A DNA stretch of 34,935 nucleotides, taken from assembly GCA_018384485.1 (NCBI GenBank), contig JAHBAE010000018.1, positions 1 through 34,935 of the forward strand. Reading direction: 5' to 3'. Below are positions 13,905-32,082 of the stretch, in pieces. A program made the translations under genes and the position numbers. The notes under the pieces were generated by a model. It made no database searches, was not told the origin of the DNA, and saw only the letters and a list, made by a program, of their open reading frames with translations. Position 1 is the stretch's first letter. Every line of letters begins with the position of its first letter. Origin of the DNA: Kiritimatiellia bacterium. GTDB lineage: Bacteria > Verrucomicrobiota > Kiritimatiellia > RFP12 > UBA1067.

Positions 13905-15452
13905 TTATTTTGAAATCAAATCCGCGCTCTTCATCTCGAACGGCCCGAGGGGAAGAGACGCCTGATTGTAAAGGACACCTGATGTGCGATCGCGCCCGAG
14001 ATACCTCACCGCGACAGGCTCCGACACTTCCGCACTTTTGATGTAAAGCTCAGGATGAGGAATCAGGAACATGCTCTTCCAATTCTTTTCACAGCCCTTG
14101 CAGACTGCAATTTCGGCTTTTTTCCATACGCCATCTTTCCCAGCAAGTTCAAAAGGAACATCATACGTAAGATCACGATTGTAAACGTACCAGCTCTTGG
14201 CGTTTTCAAACTCTATTTTTACGACAGAATTTGAAACGGAGAACTTCTTCGCCACAGGCGAATCCGCCTCAGGAACTTCAAACCCGTAATCATTCTTAAG
14301 TGCATGAATCACAAGCCTCTGCGCGACAGTCTCCTTGTCATTCGGGTGGATATCGTCGAAGTTGCCGATATCTGATGTGACAGCCATCGCCGCGTTAGGC
14401 TCTTCGGCGGCAAAGCGCGTCTGCGCCATGCACAGAGACAGCCAATTATGCTTATATGGAGCGAGCTGGCAGAAATAGAGTTTGAGAGACGGATTTTCAA
14501 ACGCCTTTGACCAACCTTTGTAAAGCGCATGCATTTTCGCACAGTAGAGATGGCTTTCGCCATTGTTGTTGCAGCCCTGATACCAGATAAAACCTCTCAT
14601 CGCCATAGGTGTGTAGTCTCGGACCATCGCATTAAACAATGCCGTAGGCTGCTGGAACTGAGCTCCGTAGATTTTTGCACCTTTGCTACCCCTAAACTCC
14701 TTACCGAAAAGCGGCTTGTATTGAGCTGTTTCCTTAATGGACTGATCGCACCCCTCATAACCTTCACGCGGCGTCCACGCGTCAATGTTAGTTCCTCCGA
14801 TGGAGGAATCGATGATGCCGACGGGCACTCCAAGCGCGATATGAAGTTCGCGGGCGTAATACCAGGCGACTGCGGAAAGAAGTTTCCAATGCTCAGACTC
14901 GGGAGGAGCGACAAAGGAAGAAGGCTCAAACTTTTTCCACCCAACCTTCAATTTATTGCGGCCGGGCGTTCCGTAAACGCGAGGAGTTTTGATAAAGCGC
15001 ACGAGCGGCAAACGAGTCATGGAAGTCATCATCGCGCCCTTGCCGTCGCGATAACGGGAATTGCCATCATGCCAGATGGGCGTTTCCATGTTACTTTGAC
15101 CGCTGGCAAACCAGACTTCACCCACAAGGACATCGGAAATGATTTTTTCATCAACCTTTGAAGCAAAAAAGCCATCGCCGCGCTCAACCACCACAAGAGA
15201 GCGCCCTTCTTTGCAAGCTTCCATCGAAGGGAGCGAAACCATCCATTTGCCATCGGCATCGGCAACTGTTTTCACCTTGTTTCCGGAAAAAGAAACTTCA
15301 ATTTTATTTCCAGGTGTTGCCGTCCCCCAAACGGGAACTTTCATCCCGCGCTGCAAAACGGCGCCGTCTGAAAAAGGAGCGCCCAATTCAATCGCTGCAA
15401 AAGCAAGTGATGCGCCTGCCGCAAAAATTGTAGATATGATTTCTTTTTTCAT
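13905..15452 (-). CDS. Exported sialate O-acetylesterase-like SGNH enzyme, paralogue 1
   Basis: 515 aa with a Sec signal peptide (MKKEIISTIFAAGASLAFA). A beta-rich N-terminal domain (VLQRGMKVPVWG, a strong family hallmark) precedes the SGNH catalytic domain: nucleophile in GEVWFASGQSNME, IDSSIGGTNIDAWTP, IWYQGCNNN and the Asp/His block DDIHPNDK. Family members deacetylate sialic acids or acetyl-xylan sugars in the periplasm or outside. Most have WYQGE at the third block; here and in the second paralogue it is WYQGC. It overlaps the ispF stop by 4 nt (ATGA), so it is co-transcribed with housekeeping genes. The substrate is not settled by sequence. Confidence 0.88.
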   Translation of the reverse strand: MKKEIISTIFAAGASLAFAAIELGAPFSDGAVLQRGMKVPVWGTATPGNKIEVSFSGNKVKTVADADGKWMVSLPSMEACKEGRSLVVVERGDGFFASKVDEKIISDVLVGEVWFASGQSNMETPIWHDGNSRYRDGKGAMMTSMTRLPLVRFIKTPRVYGTPGRNKLKVGWKKFEPSSFVAPPESEHWKLLSAVAWYYARELHIALGVPVGIIDSSIGGTNIDAWTPREGYEGCDQSIKETAQYKPLFGKEFRGSKGAKIYGAQFQQPTALFNAMVRDYTPMAMRGFIWYQGCNNNGESHLYCAKMHALYKGWSKAFENPSLKLYFCQLAPYKHNWLSLCMAQTRFAAEEPNAAMAVTSDIGNFDDIHPNDKETVAQRLVIHALKNDYGFEVPEADSPVAKKFSVSNSVVKIEFENAKSWYVYNRDLTYDVPFELAGKDGVWKKAEIAVCKGCEKNWKSMFLIPHPELYIKSAEVSEPVAVRYLGRDRTSGVLYNQASLPLGPFEMKSADLISK

Positions 15453-16889: not shown

Positions 16890-17828
16890 TTAGCGTCCGA
16901 AAAAAAGCGTCATTGAAACGGTAATAAGAACGGGCATTGTGATAATGGAAAAAAGCGTTGAAACTGCAACAAGAGCCGTGATAAATTCCGGATTCCTTCC
17001 GTAGCGAGCCGAAAACATAGTAACGCTCGCGGCTATCGGTGCTGCTGTGGGAATCATCGCAGCTACAGCCACCTCGTACGAAACACAAGGTAGAAAACAC
17101 AAAAGCGCCATAACGACTGACGGAATGATGAAATGCCTGAGAAAAAGAACTAAATAGGAAGATTTACATCTCAACGCCATCCTAAACTTCGCTCCCGCAA
17201 GATAATACCCGAGAACAACCATCGCAAGAGGCGTGTAGAGGGAGCTTATCATTTTAACCGGCTCAAAGAGAACGGCGGGAAGCTTTATTGAGAACAAGAA
17301 AAACGGAAGCCCCGCAGCCACACCCAAAAGCCCAGGATTGAACAGAATCTTAAAAACGCTCTCGCCCTTAAAACTTCCGCGCATCTCCCACAGTCCGTAC
17401 GTCCAGCAAAGTATATGAAAAACAACGACGTATAACGAGCCGTAAAAAACTCCTCTATCACCAAGGATTGCATATTGAAGAGGAATTCCCATATATCCTG
17501 CGTTCGAAAAGACCGTCGCAAACCGCATCATACGCCGCCTACCCTCATCAGCGTCCCTTACGAAAATACGCGCTAAGACTATAGCTGTGAAATGCGAGAA
17601 AAGCGCAAGGGCGAGCGCAGCGCACATTCCTTTTAGCATCGAAGGATCAAACGGCTGGTGAAATGATTTTATTATCAGACACGGAGTTATTATCACAAGA
17701 ATGAAATCTGCAATCTTCTTGATGGAAGACTCGTCGAACATCTTGTTTCTCCGCGTAAACACACCGACGACCATCATCAGAAAGAGGATGGTCGTCTGCG
17801 TTACCACTATTAGCAGTTTCTCTATCAT
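16890..17828 (-). CDS. AEC-family (auxin efflux carrier-type) transporter
   Basis: 312 aa with about ten hydrophobic segments. Family features include the N-terminal VVGVFTRRNKMFDESSIKKI followed by a Pro-containing helix (ITPCLIIKSF), FSNAGYMGIPL in the middle (the conserved FxNxGxxGxPL pattern) and a second half ending PTAAPIAASVTMFSARYG. These are secondary carriers of organic acids and similar anions in the inner membrane. It follows the DapA-family gene by 7 nt and closes the esterase-SDR-aldolase cassette, so a pathway product or substrate such as a sugar acid or 2-keto acid is a reasonable cargo guess. Direction of transport is unknown. Confidence 0.85.
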   Translation of the reverse strand: MIEKLLIVVTQTTILFLMMVVGVFTRRNKMFDESSIKKIADFILVIITPCLIIKSFHQPFDPSMLKGMCAALALALFSHFTAIVLARIFVRDADEGRRRMMRFATVFSNAGYMGIPLQYAILGDRGVFYGSLYVVVFHILCWTYGLWEMRGSFKGESVFKILFNPGLLGVAAGLPFFLFSIKLPAVLFEPVKMISSLYTPLAMVVLGYYLAGAKFRMALRCKSSYLVLFLRHFIIPSVVMALLCFLPCVSYEVAVAAMIPTAAPIAASVTMFSARYGRNPEFITALVAVSTLFSIITMPVLITVSMTLFFGR

Positions 17829-17835
17829 ATACGAG

Positions 17836-18912
17836 TTATTTGATGCATTTTTTCCCTGAAAACTCCATCATTTGATTGAAAAGAATATCAAGTTCCTTTA
17901 TCTGCAAATCATTGAGCTTCACCGTTTCAAGCTTCCACTTATTACCGGCGCCGAAACTGCCGCCCTCGGTAACCTTAGCATCCACATACTGGCGTGAGAC
18001 CATATTCTTAAACACCCCAGCCTTTTTCAAGAGGTAAAGGGAATAGCCGCGCAAGCCTCCTGGGAAATTATGCTGATCGATCAAAAGGCGGTACATCGCA
18101 TAAGCCTCGGTAAGTTTCAAACCGCGCTCCCCCGCTTCATAGCGACGCCAAAGCTCGGCCAAAACGGGCGCATACGCGCACCTTTCAGTGACAAGCCCTT
18201 CGCTGCCGCAATGTCTGAGCTGCAAAAGCCACTGCCAACCGCCCCATCCAGCGAACACGGTTTTCATGGGAGGCTTCTTCGCATTCTCATCGCGCATGCG
18301 GGTATTCGCCTCCCAACCTGCGGCCTCCTCCTTTACATAACCGAACGCATGCGGATGCTTTTTAGCCAATCTGACGATAACATCAACTGTTGGCGTTGGT
18401 GTTTTCGACGTGCCGTACGTCTGGAATATAACAGGCCTTTTTGAAATGCGCCCAAGCTGATCCCATGCCGTTTCGATATCAGCTTGCGAACGCGCATCAT
18501 CCGGAGGACGCGAAATCATCGCGATTTTCGAGCGAGGATGGCGCTCTGCGACACGTTCTATTTCACCGGCGATTTCAATTAAGTGCGCCGTATTAGTTCC
18601 GTTCGCTCCAAGCGTCATGACAATATCAAGCCCTTCGACAGCTGAAGCGCAAGCTTCAAAACCTTTGAACTTCTCTTCAGTAGTCAAAAGATCAACGGCG
18701 TCATTCGACTGACACCAGATAACACCAGGGCATCCACTGTCGGAAACCCATTTCGCTTCGCGCTTAAGAGCTTCATAATCGACGGAACCATCCTCATGAT
18801 ACGGCGTCGACATTATCGGAAACGGGCCGCGCATCTCACGCGCCGCTGGAACAGCGCATGAAGATCCAAGCGCGACAGACACGCAAGAAAATAAAAGGAG
18901 AAATTGTTTCAT
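17836..18912 (-). CDS. DapA/NanA-family aldolase with a signal peptide
   Basis: 358 aa. The body is a DapA/NAL-type TIM barrel: GPFPIMSTPYHEDGSVDYEAL at the start, a LLTTEEKF helix, a Tyr in VIFQTYGTSKTP and the Schiff-base Lys in FGYVKEEAAG. The usual GTTGE loop reads QSNDA, so substrate recognition differs from dihydrodipicolinate synthase. The N-terminus (MKQFLLLFSCVSVALGSSCAV) is a signal peptide, possibly a lipoprotein-like one, which is unusual for this normally cytosolic family. The family cleaves or forms 2-keto sugar acids through pyruvate. It overlaps the SDR stop by 4 nt. Both neighbours upstream also carry signal peptides, so the export reading is consistent. Confidence 0.82.
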   Translation of the reverse strand: MKQFLLLFSCVSVALGSSCAVPAAREMRGPFPIMSTPYHEDGSVDYEALKREAKWVSDSGCPGVIWCQSNDAVDLLTTEEKFKGFEACASAVEGLDIVMTLGANGTNTAHLIEIAGEIERVAERHPRSKIAMISRPPDDARSQADIETAWDQLGRISKRPVIFQTYGTSKTPTPTVDVIVRLAKKHPHAFGYVKEEAAGWEANTRMRDENAKKPPMKTVFAGWGGWQWLLQLRHCGSEGLVTERCAYAPVLAELWRRYEAGERGLKLTEAYAMYRLLIDQHNFPGGLRGYSLYLLKKAGVFKNMVSRQYVDAKVTEGGSFGAGNKWKLETVKLNDLQIKELDILFNQMMEFSGKKCIK

Positions 18913-19772
18913 TTCTTTTTCTCTGCCTCAAGAAAGCCTGATGTAGAGCTTCGCGGAAGAGCAAGGCGCCCCGCGTCAATGATATGCGTAGTGCCTGTTA
19001 CGGAGCGCCCCTTGGGAGAAGCCATGTAAAGAACGTAATCTACAATCTCCTGCGGCTGAGAAGCAAAGCCGAGAGATGTTGTCATCTTGGCCATGGCAGG
19101 ACGAGTCAAAACCGGCCCTGGCGAGACGCAAAAAGCGCGAACTCCATAAGGCGAGCCGGCCTTTGCCAGCCCCACCACAAAGTTATGCAGCCCTGACTTT
19201 GCAGTTCCGTACATAGAGCCGCAGCCATCCCCCTCAAAGCCTGTAACAGACCCAATGCAGACAATAACGCCGCTCTTAGCCTTCACCATATAAGGCATAC
19301 ACGCGCGGGAGAAATAGACGGCGCCTTTTAAGTTTACGTCAAGCCCCCAATCGATTACTTCGACTGGCTGCTCGTAAAACGGCTTAAAGCTTTTGCAGCA
19401 ACGCGCCTCGTTTCCGCCGGCATAGTTTATAAGAAGGTCTATGCGGCCCGTTTTTTCCATCGCCAAAGCGGCGGAACGTTCCGCATCGGCAAACTTGCGC
19501 ACGTCGGCGACAACTGCGTAGGCCTTGCCTTTGCCGAGAGCATTGATTTCATCGGCGGCCTTTTTAACACCCTTCTCATTTATGTCGCACATGAAAACGT
19601 TGCAACCTTCCTGCGCGAGAGTCTTTGAAGTGCAAAGCCCCATTCCTGAAGCCGCCCCCGTTATAACAGCCGTCTTGCCGGAAAACGTGGCTGCTATCGC
19701 GGATGTTATTTCATCTGCCGATGAGCTAAGCGCTGCAATGCAGAAAACTGAAAAAAGAATCATTCCTTTCAT
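18909..19772 (-). CDS. Short-chain dehydrogenase/reductase with a signal peptide
   Basis: 287 aa. Classical SDR: TGAASGMGL cofactor loop, Asp after the second strand (MCDINEKG, favouring NAD), NYAGG, catalytic Ser in IGSVTGFEG, YGTAK (Tyr and Lys) and SPGPVLTRP. It begins with MKGMILFSVFCIAALSSSADE, a Sec-type signal peptide, preceded by GGAGGT at 7 nt, which fixes the start. Nucleotide-dependent SDRs are nearly always cytosolic, so an exported one would need tightly held cofactor or an uncleaved membrane anchor. Neighbours (esterase 15 nt upstream, aldolase overlapping) suggest oxidation of a released sugar. Which sugar is not determined. Confidence 0.85.
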   Translation of the reverse strand: MKGMILFSVFCIAALSSSADEITSAIAATFSGKTAVITGAASGMGLCTSKTLAQEGCNVFMCDINEKGVKKAADEINALGKGKAYAVVADVRKFADAERSAALAMEKTGRIDLLINYAGGNEARCCKSFKPFYEQPVEVIDWGLDVNLKGAVYFSRACMPYMVKAKSGVIVCIGSVTGFEGDGCGSMYGTAKSGLHNFVVGLAKAGSPYGVRAFCVSPGPVLTRPAMAKMTTSLGFASQPQEIVDYVLYMASPKGRSVTGTTHIIDAGRLALPRSSTSGFLEAEKKK

Positions 19773-19787
19773 TTTTTACCTCCTTTA

Positions 19788-21299
19788 TTATTTAAATTCA
19801 AACGGACCGAGCGGAAGCGTCACTTCATTGAAGAGCGTTCCTGCCGTACGGTTCTTACCCATATAGCGCACCTTTACAGGATTAGGAACCTTCTCGGACG
19901 AAACTATGAGATCCTTACCATCGACTATACCGAAATTGGCGACATTTTCAAGCTTGGCATCGTGCCAGACGCCATCCTTGCCTGCAACTTCAAATGCTGG
20001 AACAATAGAATAGTCATCGGCGTAAACATACCAATTCTCGACATTGTCGAACGAGAGTATAACTTTGGCGCCTTGGATTTTCATCGATTTAAACACTGGC
20101 GACTCCGCCTTGATGGTTGAAACGCCGTAATCATTCTTGAGCGCGTGGAGAGAAAGACGCTTGGCGACCGTACGCTTGTCGTTCGGATGAATGTCATTGA
20201 AGTTGCCTACATCGGCCGTAACCGCGATAGCCGCATTCTCCTCCTCCGCCGCGAATTTATTCTGCGCGGTGACGATGCCCATCCAGTTGGAATGCCAAGG
20301 AGCGAGCTGAACGAAATAAAGCTTCATGTCGCTGTTGCGAAACTCCTTCGCCCAACCGTTGTAAAGAGCGTGCATCTTTGCAGCATACCTTTGGCTTTCG
20401 CTGGAGTTGTGGCAGCCCTGATACCAGATAAAACCGCGGCAAGCCATCGGCGTATACGCGGCAACCATGCCGTTCCAAAGAGCTGCAGGCTGCTGTATCC
20501 AACCGCCGTATATGTGCTTATCAGCATAAATCCCATCTTTCTTCGCCTCGGCAAAAGCCTTTGCATCGAGAAGAGGCAACGCTGCGACATCGTCGAGCTG
20601 ACGAATTCCTTCATATCCGCTTGGAGGCGTCCACGCATCGATATTAGTTCCGCCCCAGGAGGAGTCAATAACGCCTACAGGAATCTCGAGGTAATTGGCA
20701 AGTTCAAGCGCGTAATAATACCCCATCGCGGAAGGGAGAGTTGCGCCCTTCTTCCACATTTCGTACATTTCGGGAGTTGCCGCAATCCAGCGCGCCTTGT
20801 AGTCATGCTTTGGAGTTACGGAAGGAGTACGGGCATTTTTTACGAAACGTACAAAACTTTTCTTCGTTGAAAGAAGCATCATCGCGCCCCAACCGTCACG
20901 ATAGCGCGTTCCTTTGCCCCAAATCGGGCACTCGGTATTAGACTGGCCCGCACACATCCAAACTTCACCAACAAGAACATCCTTCACTACCAAAGTGTCG
21001 GTGACCGTATCGAAGAAGAAGCCTTCTTTCGCCTCGGTTACGCGCATCACGCGGCTCTCTTTCGACGCTTCCATCGAAGGGAGAGTAACTTCCCATTTGC
21101 CCTTCTCGTCGGCTTGAGCCGAAACGCTTGCACCGGCAAATTCCACCGTCACTTTACTTGAAGGTGTTGCCGTGCCCCATACGGGAACATTGCGCTGACG
21201 CTGAAGAATAACTCCATCCGTAAAAGGAGTTCCCATATCGATTTTTGCATAAGCAAAAAGCGTTGTGAGAGCGCAAGCGGTCACTATGAGCTTTTTCAT
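19788..21299 (-). CDS. Exported sialate O-acetylesterase-like SGNH enzyme, paralogue 2
   Basis: 503 aa, plainly homologous end to end with the gene at 13905-15452. Signal peptide MKKLIVTACALTTLFAYA; beta domain hallmark VILQRQRNVPVWG; SGNH blocks AGQSNTECPIWG, IDSSWGGTNIDAWTP, WYQGCHNSSES and NDIHPNDK. As in paralogue 1, the block-III WYQGE of most relatives is WYQGC. The start is supported by AAAGGAATAAACAAAA before ATG. It heads a tight cassette (SDR 15 nt downstream, then aldolase and transporter), which points to deacetylation as the first step in using a periplasmic sugar. The exact glycan is unknown. Confidence 0.88.
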   Translation of the reverse strand: MKKLIVTACALTTLFAYAKIDMGTPFTDGVILQRQRNVPVWGTATPSSKVTVEFAGASVSAQADEKGKWEVTLPSMEASKESRVMRVTEAKEGFFFDTVTDTLVVKDVLVGEVWMCAGQSNTECPIWGKGTRYRDGWGAMMLLSTKKSFVRFVKNARTPSVTPKHDYKARWIAATPEMYEMWKKGATLPSAMGYYYALELANYLEIPVGVIDSSWGGTNIDAWTPPSGYEGIRQLDDVAALPLLDAKAFAEAKKDGIYADKHIYGGWIQQPAALWNGMVAAYTPMACRGFIWYQGCHNSSESQRYAAKMHALYNGWAKEFRNSDMKLYFVQLAPWHSNWMGIVTAQNKFAAEEENAAIAVTADVGNFNDIHPNDKRTVAKRLSLHALKNDYGVSTIKAESPVFKSMKIQGAKVILSFDNVENWYVYADDYSIVPAFEVAGKDGVWHDAKLENVANFGIVDGKDLIVSSEKVPNPVKVRYMGKNRTAGTLFNEVTLPLGPFEFK

Positions 21300-22430: not shown

Positions 22431-22850
22431 TTACGCGACGGGCGTAACGCCCTTCTTTATAAACACATTTCCGTATTTTGCCGTCTCGCCCGTCTGGACC
22501 ACGGCAAACGCCCTTTTGGCGCGCGCATAAAGTTCATCGCGAGTTATAAATTCAATCTTGCCTTCGTAACCGAGCGCCTTGCGGAAACGCGCTTCCACCG
22601 TAGGATCAAGCTGATCGCCTTCAACGGGAGCTGTCATAATTACAGGGATCGCATACGAATCAAGCTCAAAAAGCGGCACGATGGCTTTCAAGAGACGGTC
22701 GACTGGGATGCCGTCTGCGCGAATAAGCTCTCTCGCGTTCGTGCGGCCTGGGAAATGCGCATCGGCAAAGAGAATTTCATCGCCATGCCCCATCTCAGCT
22801 AAAGTCTTAAGCAGTTCCGGGGAAATCACCGGGTCAATACCTTTAAGCAT
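22431..22850 (-). CDS. fucU: L-fucose mutarotase (RbsD/FucU family)
   Basis: 139 aa from the ATG at 22850, the normal FucU length. FucU hallmarks are dense: [25 protein letters not shown] with the catalytic His, [20 protein letters not shown], and [14 protein letters not shown] near the end. It interconverts anomers of L-fucose and related sugars. An ideal AAAGGAGGTG stands 7 nt before this ATG. However, the frame continues upstream to another ATG (22961) with a 37-residue Tat-like leader ([18 protein letters not shown]), which the ORF track extends to a TTG at 22967. Either the leader is a remnant, or two forms are made. It lies in one run with pyrC and, about 1.1 kb on, the esterase-SDR-aldolase cassette. 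Confidence 0.92.
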
Positions 22851-22961
22851 TCCTACACCTCCTTTAGTTTTAGTTTGAGCGCCTTCTTTGGCGCTTTCGT
22901 TTATGAAATACGCTCCCGCCGCCCCCGCCGCAACTGCGGAGACAAACACTCTACGCGTCAT
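22851..22961 (-). other. In-frame Tat-like leader upstream of fucU, ending in the fucU Shine-Dalgarno
   Basis: The 37 codons between ATG 22961 and ATG 22850 encode [19 protein letters not shown] and a polar linker ([17 protein letters not shown]). The RRxF pair, hydrophobic core and small residues fit a twin-arginine signal peptide, though no clear AxA cleavage site is visible. The same DNA carries AAAGGAGGTG (22856-22865) as ribosome binding site for the internal start, so the last codons KGGVG are the Shine-Dalgarno itself. Confidence 0.5.
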
Positions 22962-26614: not shown

Positions 26615-28663
26615 TCATTTAAGAAGCCTCAAGGCCCCTGTCGGACAGGCTAAAGTGCACATATTGCACTCGGCGCAACCAGCGATTGCCTCGGAGTTGT
26701 TAAATTCCGGTTTTATAACCGTCGTAAAACCGCGCCCAACAAGGCCTAAAAGACCTTTCTTCGCCTTCTCTTCACAGACACGAACGCAAAGATTGCAGGC
26801 GATGCACTTACGCTGATTGCGCTCAATTGCCACAAGGTGCCGCTCGTTCTCACCGGGATGGAACTCACCCCTGAAGCGAGTGCAATCAGTCTTCAACATC
26901 TTAGCATAACGGATAAGCTTACATTCAGAATAGTCGTGGCAACCGCATTCAAGGCAGCGCTTTGCCTCGAGAATGGCCTGCTCCTCTGTAAAAATAGAGG
27001 CCACAGGGCTGAAATCATGCTTTCTCTCTTCTGCGTCGCGCACGGCAGGTGTCTGGCGAGGCATTTTTTCGTATTGAGAAAAATCAATCCTCGTACTTTC
27101 GCGCGCAGAAACAGTTCCAATGCGCTCGGGAATATCTTTGCCCGAAAAGTAAGCTTCAACCGCATCTACCGCGTCGTTTGCGCCAGCGATGGCCTTAATC
27201 GCTATGCTCGCGCCGCGATTAACTGCATCACCGCACGCAAAAACGGGAGCTGAATTACCATCATCTTCTGCAACGGACGCCCTCATTGAACTGTCGGTGG
27301 CAATTGTTCCGCGAGAAGTAGTCTTAAGAGACTCAAAACCTTCCGAGTCATTCTTCTGGCCGATTGCCATAATAACATATTCAAGAGGAAGCTTTTCCAC
27401 CTGACCTTCAACGGGAACGGGCCTCAAGCGACCTTTCTCGTCTGGCTGGCCAAGTTTCATCACCTGCAATGAAAGCCCCGTTACGCGACCATCTTCAACG
27501 ATAACCTCAGTAGGGTTGCGCAGGAAACAGAACTTGACGCCTTCTTCCTCAGCTTCCTTTATTTCAATTTCCTCTGCAGGCATTTCAGCGCGGGTACGGC
27601 GGTAGACGACATAAACCTCCTCGGCTCCCAATCTTACTGCTGTGCGGCAAGCGTCCATTGCCGTGTTGCCGCCGCCTACAATCGCCACGCGCCCTGCAAG
27701 GCGCTTCTGTTCGCGCAAATAGTCGATCCCTCCAAAAACGCCTTCCGCTTCCTCGCCCGGTATTCCCATTGAAGAGGATTTCCAAGCCCCATTAGCAACA
27801 ATAAGCGCATCGCATTCCTTGCGAAGAGCTGAAAGCGCCGCATCCTTGCCGATTTTGAAATTATTGACAAGCTTTACTCCCATGGAAGAAATAAGAGAAA
27901 TCTCCTCGTCAAGAACGGCTTTGGGAAGACGATACTCGGGAATTCCGTAACGGAGCATTCCGCCCATTTTAGGCATCTGGTCATAAACTGTAACCTCTGA
28001 GCCGCGGCGGCGAAGCTGATATGCCGCAGTAAGGCCGGCGGGGCCACCGCCGATAATGGAAATTTTCTTTCCGGCGCATGATGATTCGGCGATAACGCCT
28101 GCAGGCGCAAAAACTCCCATTTTACGCGCGGTATCTGCGGCAAACGCCTTAAGAAAAGCTATTGAAATGGGAGATTCCACCTTGCCTCGACGGCACGCCG
28201 TTTCGCACGGATGGGGACAGACCCTGCCGATTGACGCGGGAAGAGGGTAAGTATCCATCACAGTTGCCGTAGCATCGGCAAAGCGGCCCTCGGCAATTTC
28301 CTTGACATATTTTTGGCATTGAGTATGCGCGGGACATTCAAGAACGCAAGGCCCGAGGCAGTCTGCATCGTGATCTCCCATCATAAGCTCAAATGCAAGC
28401 TTTCTGGCCTTGAGCGCTCGCTCGCTTTTTGTATTTATGACCATCCCTTCTCTGACGGGCGTTGCGCAGGCTCTCAGAAGCTTCGGGGACCCTTCCGCTT
28501 CCACAACACAAACGCCGCACGCTCCGTAGGGAGACATGCCTTTAAGAAAACAGAGATTCGGAATATCTATACCAGCACTTGAAGCCGCCTCAAGAATGGT
28601 GGCGCCCTCATGAGCTTCAATCTTTACTCCGTCTATCTCAAGCGCAACAATTTTTTCGTTCAT
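26615..28663 (-). CDS. 2Fe-2S/GltD-like flavin oxidoreductase subunit with C-terminal ferredoxin (StnC/NfnB-like)
   Basis: 682 aa. In order: a [2Fe-2S] ferredoxin domain (C38-x10-C49-x2-C52-x13-C66); a GltD-type cysteine-rich helical domain (C102, C106, C110, C116; then C149, C153, C157 in RVCPHPCETAC); an FAD Rossmann loop (IIGGGPAG near 205); a second NAD(P) loop (VAIVGGGNTAMDACR near 340); and a C-terminal pair of [4Fe-4S] motifs (CIACNLCVRVC, CAECNMCTLACP). This architecture is found in NfnB-like subunits of electron-bifurcating transhydrogenases. SD AAGGAG precedes the ATG. It follows the NuoF-like gene by 32 nt. No hydrogenase or formate dehydrogenase catalytic subunit is present, which favours an NAD(H)/NADP(H)/ferredoxin transhydrogenase. 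Confidence 0.85.
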   Translation of the reverse strand: MNEKIVALEIDGVKIEAHEGATILEAASSAGIDIPNLCFLKGMSPYGACGVCVVEAEGSPKLLRACATPVREGMVINTKSERALKARKLAFELMMGDHDADCLGPCVLECPAHTQCQKYVKEIAEGRFADATATVMDTYPLPASIGRVCPHPCETACRRGKVESPISIAFLKAFAADTARKMGVFAPAGVIAESSCAGKKISIIGGGPAGLTAAYQLRRRGSEVTVYDQMPKMGGMLRYGIPEYRLPKAVLDEEISLISSMGVKLVNNFKIGKDAALSALRKECDALIVANGAWKSSSMGIPGEEAEGVFGGIDYLREQKRLAGRVAIVGGGNTAMDACRTAVRLGAEEVYVVYRRTRAEMPAEEIEIKEAEEEGVKFCFLRNPTEVIVEDGRVTGLSLQVMKLGQPDEKGRLRPVPVEGQVEKLPLEYVIMAIGQKNDSEGFESLKTTSRGTIATDSSMRASVAEDDGNSAPVFACGDAVNRGASIAIKAIAGANDAVDAVEAYFSGKDIPERIGTVSARESTRIDFSQYEKMPRQTPAVRDAEERKHDFSPVASIFTEEQAILEAKRCLECGCHDYSECKLIRYAKMLKTDCTRFRGEFHPGENERHLVAIERNQRKCIACNLCVRVCEEKAKKGLLGLVGRGFTTVIKPEFNNSEAIAGCAECNMCTLACPTGALRLLK

Positions 28664-28695
28664 AACACTCCTTGAATTCTGCCTTTACACGCTTC

Positions 28696-30432
28696 TTACT
28701 TACGCACAACCGCCCCAAAGCGGCATGTTTTTTCGCAAACCCCGCATCCGATGCACTTTACTTCGTCGATTACATACGGTTCCTTGGCGGAACCTGAAAT
28801 CGCGCCAGCCGGACATTTACGCGCACAGGCGCTGCAACGCTTGCACTTATCCGGCAGAATCGCAAACTTTCTCAAGCTTACACATTCCCCAGCCGGGCAT
28901 TTCTTCTCCTTTATGTGCGCCTCGTATTCGTCGCGGAAATAGCGAATCGTCGTAAGCACAGGATTGGGAGCCGTCTGCCCAAGGCCGCAAAGCGCGCCAT
29001 CTTTAATTCCGCGGCAAAGCTCTTCCAACATCTCCACATCGCCTTCTTTACCTTTTCCTTCAGTTATGCGCGTGAGAGTTTCATGGAGACGCTTCGTGCC
29101 GATGCGGCAGTGAACGCATTTGCCACAGCTTTCCTTCGCCGTAAATTCGAGGAAGAACTTCGCCATATTAACCATACACGTCGTATCATCCATGACGACC
29201 ATGCCGCCTGAGCCCATAATCGCGCCTGTCGCAGCAAGCTCCCTGTAATCGATACGCGTATCAAGAAGAGACTCAGGAATGCACCCGCCTGAAGGACCGC
29301 CCAGCTGAACGGCTTTAAACTTGGCGCTACCGCGCACACCGCCGCCGATGCCGAAAATAACTTCCCTCAAAGTGAGCCCCATCGGAATTTCAACGAGCCC
29401 GCCGCGGCGTATTTTTCCTGTCAGCGCAAAAACTTTCGTTCCCTTGGAATTTTCCGTGCCGAGAGCGGCGAAAGCCTTCCCTCCGTTAAGAATAATCCAA
29501 GCGACATTGGCAAAAGTTTCAACATTGTTGATATTGGAGGGGCTGTTCTTGTAACCGCGCTCAGCCGGGAACGGAGGCTTGAGGCGCGGCATTCCGCGAT
29601 TGCCTTCAAGCGACTCGATAAGAGAAGTCTCTTCGCCGCAAACGAACGCGCCAGCGCCTGCTTTGATGCGCAACGAGCACGAAAAGCCCGAGCCTAAAAT
29701 ATTTTCTCCAAGAAGCCCTGCCGCCTCAGCATCGCGAATCGCCTTTTGAAGGCGCACGATGGCGAGAGGATATTCAGCGCGCACGTAAACGAAAGCCTCA
29801 GAAGCGCCGATCGCATACGCGGCGATAAGCATACCCTCGATAAGAGAATGAGGATCAGACTCAATAACCGCGCGGTCCATAAACGCGCCGGGATCTCCCT
29901 CGTCAGCATTGCAGATGAGATATTTTTTCTCGCCCTTCGCCGCTCGCGCCGCATTCCATTTAAACCAAGTCGGGAAGCCCGCGCCGCCGCGGCCCGCGAG
30001 AGAAGAAGTTTTCACTTCTGAAATCACGTCTTCAGGCGAAAGTGTGAAAACCTTTTCAAGCGCCTTGTACCCGCCGACGGAGCGGTAACTCTCGAGCGAC
30101 TCAGGATCGATCACCCCGCAATTTCGCAAGGCAATGCGCGTCTGACTCGTGAGAAACGAGGCGTCCTCATCGGAAATGACAAGCTCTTCAACGCTTTTAA
30201 AATCGCCAGTGGAAGATGCAGAGACAATTTTCGGAGCATCCTCAGGAGTTACGCGCACAAGCCTTTTTTTCAGCTCTTTTCCGTCATACAGGTCAACTAT
30301 CGGCTCAAGATAACAAGCTCCAACGCAACCAGTGATTCCGACATCGTCTGAAAGACTGTCGAGAGCCTCTTTCACTCTCTGAGCTCCCGCGGCAATGCCG
30401 CAACTACCCATTCCAACTACTATTTTAAGCAT
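28696..30432 (-). CDS. NuoF/HydB-like NADH-binding flavoprotein subunit
   Basis: 578 aa from the ATG at 30432 (AAAGGAG 8 nt upstream); the listed 30438 is a TTG. An N-terminal thioredoxin-like [2Fe-2S] domain (GSCGIAAGA ... TGCVGACYLEP) shows three obvious Cys where four are usual. The NuoF core follows with FMN loop LAGRGGAGFPT, NADH site NADEGDPGAFMD and [4Fe-4S] SCGKCVHCRIG ... CGLG. Two more [4Fe-4S] motifs close the protein (CKRCSACARKCP, CIGCGVCEKTC). This is the HydB-like arrangement of bifurcating hydrogenases, formate dehydrogenases and Stn/NfnABC-type transhydrogenases, not the shorter complex I NuoF. It sits 2 nt after the NuoE-like stop, so translation is coupled. Confidence 0.9.
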   Translation of the reverse strand: MLKIVVGMGSCGIAAGAQRVKEALDSLSDDVGITGCVGACYLEPIVDLYDGKELKKRLVRVTPEDAPKIVSASSTGDFKSVEELVISDEDASFLTSQTRIALRNCGVIDPESLESYRSVGGYKALEKVFTLSPEDVISEVKTSSLAGRGGAGFPTWFKWNAARAAKGEKKYLICNADEGDPGAFMDRAVIESDPHSLIEGMLIAAYAIGASEAFVYVRAEYPLAIVRLQKAIRDAEAAGLLGENILGSGFSCSLRIKAGAGAFVCGEETSLIESLEGNRGMPRLKPPFPAERGYKNSPSNINNVETFANVAWIILNGGKAFAALGTENSKGTKVFALTGKIRRGGLVEIPMGLTLREVIFGIGGGVRGSAKFKAVQLGGPSGGCIPESLLDTRIDYRELAATGAIMGSGGMVVMDDTTCMVNMAKFFLEFTAKESCGKCVHCRIGTKRLHETLTRITEGKGKEGDVEMLEELCRGIKDGALCGLGQTAPNPVLTTIRYFRDEYEAHIKEKKCPAGECVSLRKFAILPDKCKRCSACARKCPAGAISGSAKEPYVIDEVKCIGCGVCEKTCRFGAVVRK

Positions 30433-30434
30433 TG

Positions 30435-30872
30435 TCAAACTCCTTTCGCGGCTTCATTGCGAATGTTGCGAACGATTTCTTTGGCTTTCTCGGGGGTGAG
30501 CGAGCCGTAAGCTACACCGTTAATCATCATAACGGGAGATAGAGAACAGCAGCCGAGGCAAGCGACAAATTCAATCGTAAAAAGGCCGTCTTCGGAAGTT
30601 TCTCCGTCGCCGATACCAAGCTCCTCCTTGAGAGCAGCGGCGATGGATGAAGCCGAATTGACGTGGCAAGCCGTGCCTTTGCAAAGCAGTATGAGATTCT
30701 TTCCTGGCTTTGAAAGGCGGAACTGAGAATAAAAAGTCGCAACGCCCATCACCTTTGCTGGCGAAACGCCCTTCTCCTCGGCTATGCGGTAGATTTCCTC
30801 TTTCGGTATATAACCGAACTTTTCTTGAGTCTCCTGCAAGAGAGAGACTACGGATGATTCGCTGTTATTCAT
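30435..30872 (-). CDS. NuoE/HydC-like thioredoxin-fold [2Fe-2S] subunit
   Basis: About 145 aa from the ATG at 30872, chosen because GGAGG stands 11 nt before it (the listed 30890 start is also possible). Helical N-terminus (LLQETQEKFGYIPKE, GVSPAKVMGVATFYSQF), then the [2Fe-2S] ligands CKGTACHV and CLGCCSLSP, then MMINGVAYGSLTPEK, all typical of NuoE/HydC. It passes electrons to or from the NuoF-like flavin subunit in a soluble complex. Its ATG overlaps the GT2 stop by 8 nt (ATGAATAA), an odd coupling between a cell-envelope gene and a redox complex. Confidence 0.92.
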   Translation of the reverse strand: MNNSESSVVSLLQETQEKFGYIPKEEIYRIAEEKGVSPAKVMGVATFYSQFRLSKPGKNLILLCKGTACHVNSASSIAAALKEELGIGDGETSEDGLFTIEFVACLGCCSLSPVMMINGVAYGSLTPEKAKEIVRNIRNEAAKGV

Positions 30873-32082
30873 TTTCTGTGTGTCCTCCATGGGGAATAGG
30901 TTTCCATTGCTTTGTGGGAAAAATCAAAACAAAAAGAACTGATGAAGCAAGAACGATAGAAAAAATGGGAAATGTTAGAATCGCCATCAAAGACGGGCGA
31001 CGCTTCTGCGAAGAAAGCGCTACCGCCGCCCATCCCGTAAGCCAACCCATCGCAAGAACAAAGAACACAACGCCAAATGACGTAACCAAGGAGCCTTTGC
31101 TCATTTCATCGGAAAGAAAGCGCACGCAAATTGACACGAAATCAAAGAATAGAATGAACGCCACCGACATTCCCGTCAAAATAGCGAAAAAACTGTCAAA
31201 AAGACGCAGCGACGGCTTTTTGAATAGCGTCTTGAGCCAGAGACAAATATACGCTCTTACTACTTGCCAGCCGCCTGTCGACCACCTGCGCAGCTGCCGC
31301 CACATATACGTAACGGATATGGGTTGCTCATCGGCAAATTCCGCCGTAGGAACGTACGCAACGCGGCGGCCGCGAATATTTGATTGAACGGTAAACTCCA
31401 CATCCTCCACCATAGTGCGAGTCTTCCACCCTTCGTCGCTTAAAGCCTGGAACGTAAAGGCAAAGCCGGTGCCTGTCAATTTTCCGGAAAGGCCGAGATT
31501 CGTGCGAACACGATTTGAAAGCTCGTTCATCATCGCCCAATACACCGTATACCACCCAGAGATCAGCGATGCGCAGGCATTTGAAGATTGGCGCCGCCCC
31601 GTTACAATTATCTCTCCGTCATGAAGAGCATCATTCATCTCGGAAAGCCAGATATCGGAAACGGAATTGTCGGCATCGAAAACTGCGATGGCGTCAAAGG
31701 AGCCGTCGGAAAGAACCTTTTCTATTCCCCACGAAAGGACCTCGCCTTTCCCAGAACTTGGCGTTGTCTTCTCCCAAACTTCCGCCCCAGCCTCTTTTGC
31801 TCTGAGAACAGTCTCGTCAGAGCAGTTATCCGCAAGAACAATAACCTTGAAAAACTCAGCCGGATATTTCGACCTTAAAAGGCTTAAAACAGGAAGACGT
31901 ATGACGCGCTCCTCGTTTCTTGCGCAGATAAGAACTGCGAAGCGATAGTATGCTGACGCCTTAGGATGCGTTTTTGCAGGCTTTATAAGCCCTGCAAGAA
32001 CGATGAATGTCGACCAGAAAAAAACTGCACTTAAAGCGAAGCAAAGATAATCCAGCCATTCGGTGTTGAAAACTTCAGTCAT
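30865..32082 (-). CDS. Membrane glycosyltransferase, family GT2
   Basis: 405 aa. One N-terminal membrane helix (about 12-34), a GT-A domain, then three or four C-terminal helices. GT2 motifs: VLICARNEE at the start of the nucleotide-sugar fold, the DxD-type FDADN, TGTGFAF, the acceptor/base motif EDVEFT, and the QxxRW-type QLRRWSTGGW found in processive synthases. It probably adds or polymerises a sugar at the inner membrane; product unknown. It overlaps lpxL by 8 nt (ATGACTGA) and is followed by the redox trio. With LpxL upstream, a role in lipid-linked or outer-membrane glycan is plausible. Confidence 0.88.
   Translation of the reverse strand: MTEVFNTEWLDYLCFALSAVFFWSTFIVLAGLIKPAKTHPKASAYYRFAVLICARNEERVIRLPVLSLLRSKYPAEFFKVIVLADNCSDETVLRAKEAGAEVWEKTTPSSGKGEVLSWGIEKVLSDGSFDAIAVFDADNSVSDIWLSEMNDALHDGEIIVTGRRQSSNACASLISGWYTVYWAMMNELSNRVRTNLGLSGKLTGTGFAFTFQALSDEGWKTRTMVEDVEFTVQSNIRGRRVAYVPTAEFADEQPISVTYMWRQLRRWSTGGWQVVRAYICLWLKTLFKKPSLRLFDSFFAILTGMSVAFILFFDFVSICVRFLSDEMSKGSLVTSFGVVFFVLAMGWLTGWAAVALSSQKRRPSLMAILTFPIFSIVLASSVLFVLIFPTKQWKPIPHGGHTENE

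Follow-up and report, generated by a model that had tools for sequence, protein, structure and literature searches.

Predicted export of a remodelled DapA-fold protein family, and of a paired short-chain dehydrogenase, at a Kiritimatiellia locus

A stretch of 34,935 nucleotides (nt; positions 1 to 34,935) of contig JAHBAE010000018.1 from a gut Kiritimatiellia bacterium (assembly GCA_018384485.1), referred to here as the window, carries four adjacent genes for a sialate O-acetylesterase-like (SASA-family) esterase, a short-chain dehydrogenase/reductase (SDR), a DapA-fold protein (hereafter DapA-like) and an AEC-family permease. Textbooks place DapA-fold aldolases and SDRs in the cytosol, and a first-pass annotation of this DNA had drawn attention to signal peptides on the esterase, the SDR and the DapA-like protein. 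As judged from the sequences, this compartment anomaly appears real and is partly explained: export is predicted to be family-wide for a remodelled family of DapA-fold proteins and specific to one clade for the SDR. The locus likely serves to convert, outside the cytoplasm, a sugar or sugar acid of glycan origin. That its core is a DapA-fold enzyme acting there on a glycan-derived sugar, together with a paired oxidoreductase, is a proposal to which we give an even chance.

Signals were called by a rule combining the best 10-residue hydropathy near the N-terminus, the net charge before it and small residues at positions −3 and −1; no dedicated signal predictor was used, and conservation among relatives served as the main test of these rule-based calls. 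The rule accepted any in-frame start, a bias towards signals, and was applied alike to the neighbouring SDRs. All three proteins singled out by the annotation received Sec-type signals, those of the SDR and the DapA-like protein being supported by conservation as well. The hydropathy maxima were 2.03 for the SASA esterase (signal MKKLIVTACALTTLFAYA), 2.80 for the SDR and 2.63 for the DapA-like protein, each with a positive N-terminus and small −3/−1 residues. The clearly cytosolic window proteins PyrC, PurA, PurE and IspF peaked at 0.63–1.07, and a few other window proteins reached ~1.9–2.0 without a signal-like layout.

Relatives of the DapA-like protein were found in 11 of 289 genomes of the phylum, and 80 named loci are spread over Kiritimatiellae, other Verrucomicrobiota, Lentisphaerae, Planctomycetota and Bacteroidales. 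The collected set of 91 rows, with the window listed twice, represents 90 distinct sequences, 82 of which carry a Sec, Tat or lipoprotein signal when any in-frame start is allowed. Roughly half of the signals are of the Sec type, some with a lipobox, and half are of the Tat type. Two of the eight remaining sequences are cut by contig ends and six scored none, including two (L117 and L165) with a visible Tat-like segment below the cut-off. Three unrelated signal types thus occupy the same place in these relatives, and therefore export itself seems to be conserved, probably as a general trait of the DapA-like family across several phyla. Homologues that start downstream of the signal segment would speak against export, and the DapA-like family, with its signal retained in this large majority, does not show that pattern.

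The AlphaFold2 model of the DapA-like protein (predicted local distance difference test, pLDDT, 88.7) is a TIM barrel, and its closest Foldseek matches were DHDPS, sialic acid lyase (NAL) and 2-keto-3-deoxyarabonate (KDA) dehydratase. A profile alignment to solved DHDPS places Lys194, on strand 6, at the Schiff-base lysine and Gln164-Thr165 at the catalytic Tyr-Asn. The barrel and the lysine, the latter kept in 89 of the 90 sequences, are shared with the DHDPS/N-acetylneuraminate lyase superfamily (DapA, NanA, YagE, L-2-keto-3-deoxyarabonate dehydratase). Unlike that superfamily, the window protein is predicted to be exported, has lost the catalytic Tyr of the YNxP motif found in canonical DHDPS/NAL/KDG-type aldolases (Gln164-Thr165 in 90/90), carries Q68-S69-N/G70-D71 in place of the GTTGE-type substrate loop, has the DHDPS Tyr107 motif replaced and bears an extra conserved C-terminal segment, LRGY...GVFKN..SR. 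Tyr166 is a neighbouring, variable residue and does not occupy the DHDPS tyrosine position. The catalytic residues had initially been read as intact, which holds for the Ser and YxxxK of the SDR and for the aldolase Lys, whereas the aldolase Tyr is Gln throughout the family. Trp66, Arg135, Gln164, Thr165, Glu196, Arg288 and Arg307 are invariant among the 90 relatives. A role as the DapA of lysine biosynthesis was ruled out: the genome has its own signal-less DapA (L002:1102-1989) with canonical Tyr, Asn and GTTGE loop. Against the dapA equivalog model the DapA-like protein scored 28 bits, far short of the cut-off of 206. The protein thus lies within the fold family but without the defining residues of canonical aldolases, in a remodelled and uncharacterised family.

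The SDR has the features of a classical member of its family. In the alignment of its relatives, the TGxxxGxG motif (TGAASGMG) and the Asn-Ser-Tyr-Lys tetrad (N147, S175, Y188, K192) are invariant or nearly so, and an Asp (Asp63) following the second strand points to NAD as the likely cofactor. Its structure model was mediocre (pLDDT 73.8) and was not used. The gene has a strong Shine-Dalgarno sequence, AAAGGAGGTAAAAAATG, and the stretch from the signal to the NAD motif contains no usable start. Most SDR homologues, 25 of 28 distinct sequences, do start downstream of the signal segment; those of its own clade do not. The three that carry a signal are the window protein, that of genome G367 (74–75% identical to the window; its contig matches CADAKF010000073.1, RUG13365) and that of genome G325 on contig C43 (66% identical), and the window signal is matched by signals at L017/L038 and L018/L039. 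They form one clade (support 100/96) with the catalytic residues kept, and its sister, L020, is 72% identical and starts directly at the Rossmann fold. A single gain followed by retention is therefore the simplest history of the signal. Exported and cytosolic SDRs were not clearly set apart by their cysteine content or net charge. The idea that Sec was used because the lineage had lost Tat was rejected, as TatC is present in 107 of 115 family genomes, among them the other two that have a signal-bearing SDR. TatC was not found in the window's assembly (90% complete) or in its near relative G349, both incomplete, so that this may be a gap. At another locus (L040:545-2133, + strand), a signal-less SDR, 72% identical to that of the window, directly follows a DHquinase_I-fold protein and precedes an MFS gene, making this protein another small TIM-barrel partner for the window-type SDR family.

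Three arrangements recur around the DapA-like genes; because their loci are related to one another, Fisher tests of the associations between partners serve for description only. In the first, a signal-less SDR and an MFS transporter accompany the exported DapA-like protein; in Kiritimatiellae these are joined by GH10, and in Bacteroidales they lie behind genes judged SusC/SusD-like only from their size, order and N-terminus. In the second, the partner is a Tat-exported Gfo/Idh/MocA protein, and in the third, seen in the window and G367, it is a Sec-exported SDR. An MFS gene was present in 23 of 23 loci with a signal-less SDR, which is of the window type in 18 or 19 of them and a different SDR in the rest. 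No MFS gene was detected by homology in the ~20 loci with an exported Gfo, where a count of many-helix proteins gives two. Many other DapA-like loci had no oxidoreductase partner detected within 3.8 kb. Glycoside hydrolases (GH) near the relatives' loci include GH10, GH27-like, GH28, GH31, GH106, GH123 and GH127. In the DapA-like tree, the arrangement switches in several places. The nearest relatives of the window protein are those at L088, paired with an exported SDR, and L089, paired with an exported Gfo; the exported SDR of the window clade therefore appears to occupy the slot of the exported Gfo. The sequence of steps first envisaged, oxidation followed by cleavage, does not fit the common first arrangement, in which the DapA-like protein is exported and the SDR stays in the cytosol, with an MFS transporter between them. 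If that transporter is an importer, the DapA-like step would most simply come first, followed by import and then by the SDR, because the former protein lies outside and the latter inside. Near one DapA-like/SDR/MFS locus, a 943-amino-acid (aa) protein (L037:10854-13685, − strand) matched Pfam HZS_alpha, the hydrazine synthase alpha middle domain, with 100.7 bits.

We propose that glycoside hydrolases and esterases encoded at these loci would release a sugar or sugar acid, on whose keto group the DapA-like protein would form a Schiff base through Lys194 and so cleave, dehydrate or isomerise it. The paired oxidoreductase would act on the same sugar and, in the window clade, would share its side of the membrane with the DapA-like protein, and the AEC permease of the window may take up the product; that it moves an acid product is a guess. 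If the SDR has been moved out of the cytosol by a Sec signal, NAD would have to be obtained and recycled outside the cell membrane. The fuller proposal, of a widespread and undescribed extracytoplasmic Schiff-base sugar chemistry, with an exported DapA-fold class bearing a new active site and one clade in which a Sec-exported SDR recycles NAD outside, is put forward only tentatively. A literature search, with subscription papers mostly outside its scope, turned up no account of DapA-like or SDR enzymes that are exported.

Precedents for sugar oxidation in the periplasm come from Tat-exported Gfo/Idh/MocA proteins, namely Zymomonas GFOR, Caulobacter AAOR (PMC4628093) and Bacteroides thetaiotaomicron BT2158, a periplasmic glycoside 3-dehydrogenase (PMC11300592). 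These are likewise nicotinamide-dependent sugar oxidoreductases outside the cytoplasm, and proteins of this type are the usual partner in loci related to that of the window. In contrast, the window oxidoreductase is an SDR, of another fold family, with a Sec signal in place of a Tat signal. A title cited in PMC7317946 (see also PMC4628093) describes the Tat export of GFOR with its cofactor bound, a form of co-export that would be unavailable to the SDR because it is a Sec substrate.

Several points weigh against this proposal. Sec passes unfolded protein, so an exported SDR must find its NAD outside. The pairing of an exported SDR with a DapA-like protein was seen in two genomes only: the G325 SDR lies at a contig end with its downstream neighbour unseen, and the better of the two detected DapA-like genes of G325 (67%) lies next to a Tat-exported Gfo on a different contig. 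The signals were called by a simple rule, and the export of both enzymes is a prediction from sequence. With the DHDPS catalytic Tyr, the Tyr107 motif and the GTTGE loop all gone, lyase activity is not assured.

The alternatives were weighed against the same evidence. Both proteins may be exported without catalysing consecutive steps, the SDR holding NAD tightly in a redox-neutral reaction (an epimerase or a GFOR-like swap) and the DapA-like protein handling another product. This is possible, though somewhat doubtful: it requires no free NAD outside the cell, it has a precedent in GFOR, a periplasmic enzyme exported together with its NADP (as cited in PMC7317946; PMC4628093), and it would suit the many DapA-like loci without a detected oxidoreductase. 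However, classical SDRs usually exchange NAD, and the adjacency of SDR and DapA-like genes in both Kiritimatiellae and Bacteroidales suggests a shared route. It is unlikely that only the DapA-like protein works outside, the SDR signal being an uncleaved anchor or giving little activity there and the relevant SDR chemistry being cytosolic. The signal-less majority of SDR relatives behind an MFS importer, and the unfavourable nature of Sec export for an NAD enzyme, would accord with it. Yet the Lys before and the Asp-Glu after the hydrophobic run predict an outside position for the domain whether or not it stays anchored, three divergent genomes have retained both the signal and the catalytic residues, and no MFS gene lies near the DapA-like/SDR pair of the window or of G367. 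Less likely again is a non-catalytic DapA-like family of extracytoplasmic sugar-binding or sensing proteins; the replaced DHDPS motifs, including Tyr133, would allow it, but the near-invariance of Lys194 and the invariance of R135, Q164, T165, E196, R288 and R307 are as expected of an active site. Annotation artefacts in wholly cytosolic proteins are very improbable: despite the permissive rule and an in-frame Met, M27, where the DapA-like barrel begins, mis-called starts were ruled out for the DapA-like protein by the three signal types in its 82 relatives and for the SDR by the lack of another start and the agreement of two other genomes, and the same lenient rule found signals on neighbouring SDRs only in the window and G367 (L038 = L088).

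Recomputed on the window, the four genes all lie on the − strand, separated by 15 nt, a 4-nt ATGA overlap and 7 nt, which reproduces the positions and gaps annotated at first, and Pfam agrees with all four names (Table 1).

Table 1 Features of the DapA-like/SDR locus in the window.
Feature	Position	Strand	Basis
SASA-family (sialate O-acetylesterase-like) esterase, 503 aa	19788..21299	−	Pfam SASA, 53.7 bits
Classical SDR, 287 aa	18909..19772	−	Pfam adh_short, 160 bits
SDR Sec-type signal peptide MKGMILFSVFCIAALSSSA, predicted cleavage before DE	19716..19772	−	Shine-Dalgarno sequence and relatives
DapA-fold protein, 358 aa, of a putative remodelled exported family	17836..18912	−	Pfam DHDPS, 25.5 bits (cut-off 22.1)
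DapA-like Sec-type signal MKQFLLLFSCVSVALGSSCA, exact cleavage uncertain	18853..18912	−	Signals at the same place in relatives
Gln164 codon, at the DHDPS catalytic Tyr133 position	18421..18423	−	Aligned to Tyr of YNVPGRT in 3flu; 90/90
Schiff-base lysine K194 codon	18331..18333	−	Aligned to DHDPS catalytic Lys; 89/90
AEC-family permease (Mem_trans), 312 aa	16890..17828	−	Pfam, 111 bits

The same-strand run is longer than the four genes first proposed as one unit: PyrC lies upstream of the esterase and ends 35 nt before it, and a mutarotase gene abuts PyrC. Promoter and terminator scans of the locus gave matches only at chance level. The idea of a fixed four-gene system did not survive comparison with other genomes, and a conserved four-gene cassette was ruled out, since the esterase and the permease are not conserved partners of DapA-like loci. 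Both are generic in family genomes: AEC relatives occur in 86 of 115, elsewhere, beside signal-less Gfo/Idh/MocA-like genes and near no other DapA-like locus, and SASA relatives in 81 of 115, mostly elsewhere. The contigs of the relatives' metagenome-assembled genomes are short, and the genes at these loci were called in this analysis. The nearest relative, G349, keeps the order FucM-PyrC-SASA up to its contig end, and the esterase may therefore belong to that run. A second SASA esterase in the window (13905-15452, − strand) is 52% identical to the first and has its own Sec-type signal.

The mutarotase (22431-22961, − strand) matched the L-fucose mutarotase model NF011949 (197 bits) and has a Tat-type signal, although TatC was not detected in this assembly; an exported mutarotase would be unusual. 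Its gene is present in 72 of 115 family genomes, and many of 30 fetched relatives have Tat-like N-termini, others beginning at a cytosolic Met. The PyrC between it and the esterase is the only dihydroorotase detected in the genome. Non-phosphorylative routes for L-fucose and sugar acids are cytosolic and comprise a mutarotase, an SDR dehydrogenase, a lactonase, a dehydratase and a DapA-type aldolase. The window likewise has a mutarotase, an SDR and a DapA-fold protein close together, but no lactonase or dehydratase was seen there and the mutarotase gene lies elsewhere in relatives, so a fucose route through it was not supported. The locus can also be compared with Bacteroidales polysaccharide utilisation loci, the Bacteroidales relatives lying just downstream of SusC-/SusD-like genes with an SDR and an MFS gene; in contrast, no SusC/SusD pair was found among the Pfam-searched genes around the window's four genes, and an AEC permease stands in place of the MFS transporter. 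Further along the window (26615-30890, − strand), genes for NuoE-like, NuoF-like and Fer2/pyridine-nucleotide-disulphide oxidoreductase proteins resemble a soluble NADH-linked complex.

The DapA-like family, in which the lysine is retained and a new group of residues is invariant, is a defined target for enzymology. Together with its partners, it offers a testable case of carbon-skeleton and redox sugar chemistry outside the cytoplasm, in bacteria from the gut and the environment that span several phyla. Should the exported SDR prove active, it would pose a sharp question of how a Sec-exported NAD enzyme is supplied with its cofactor.

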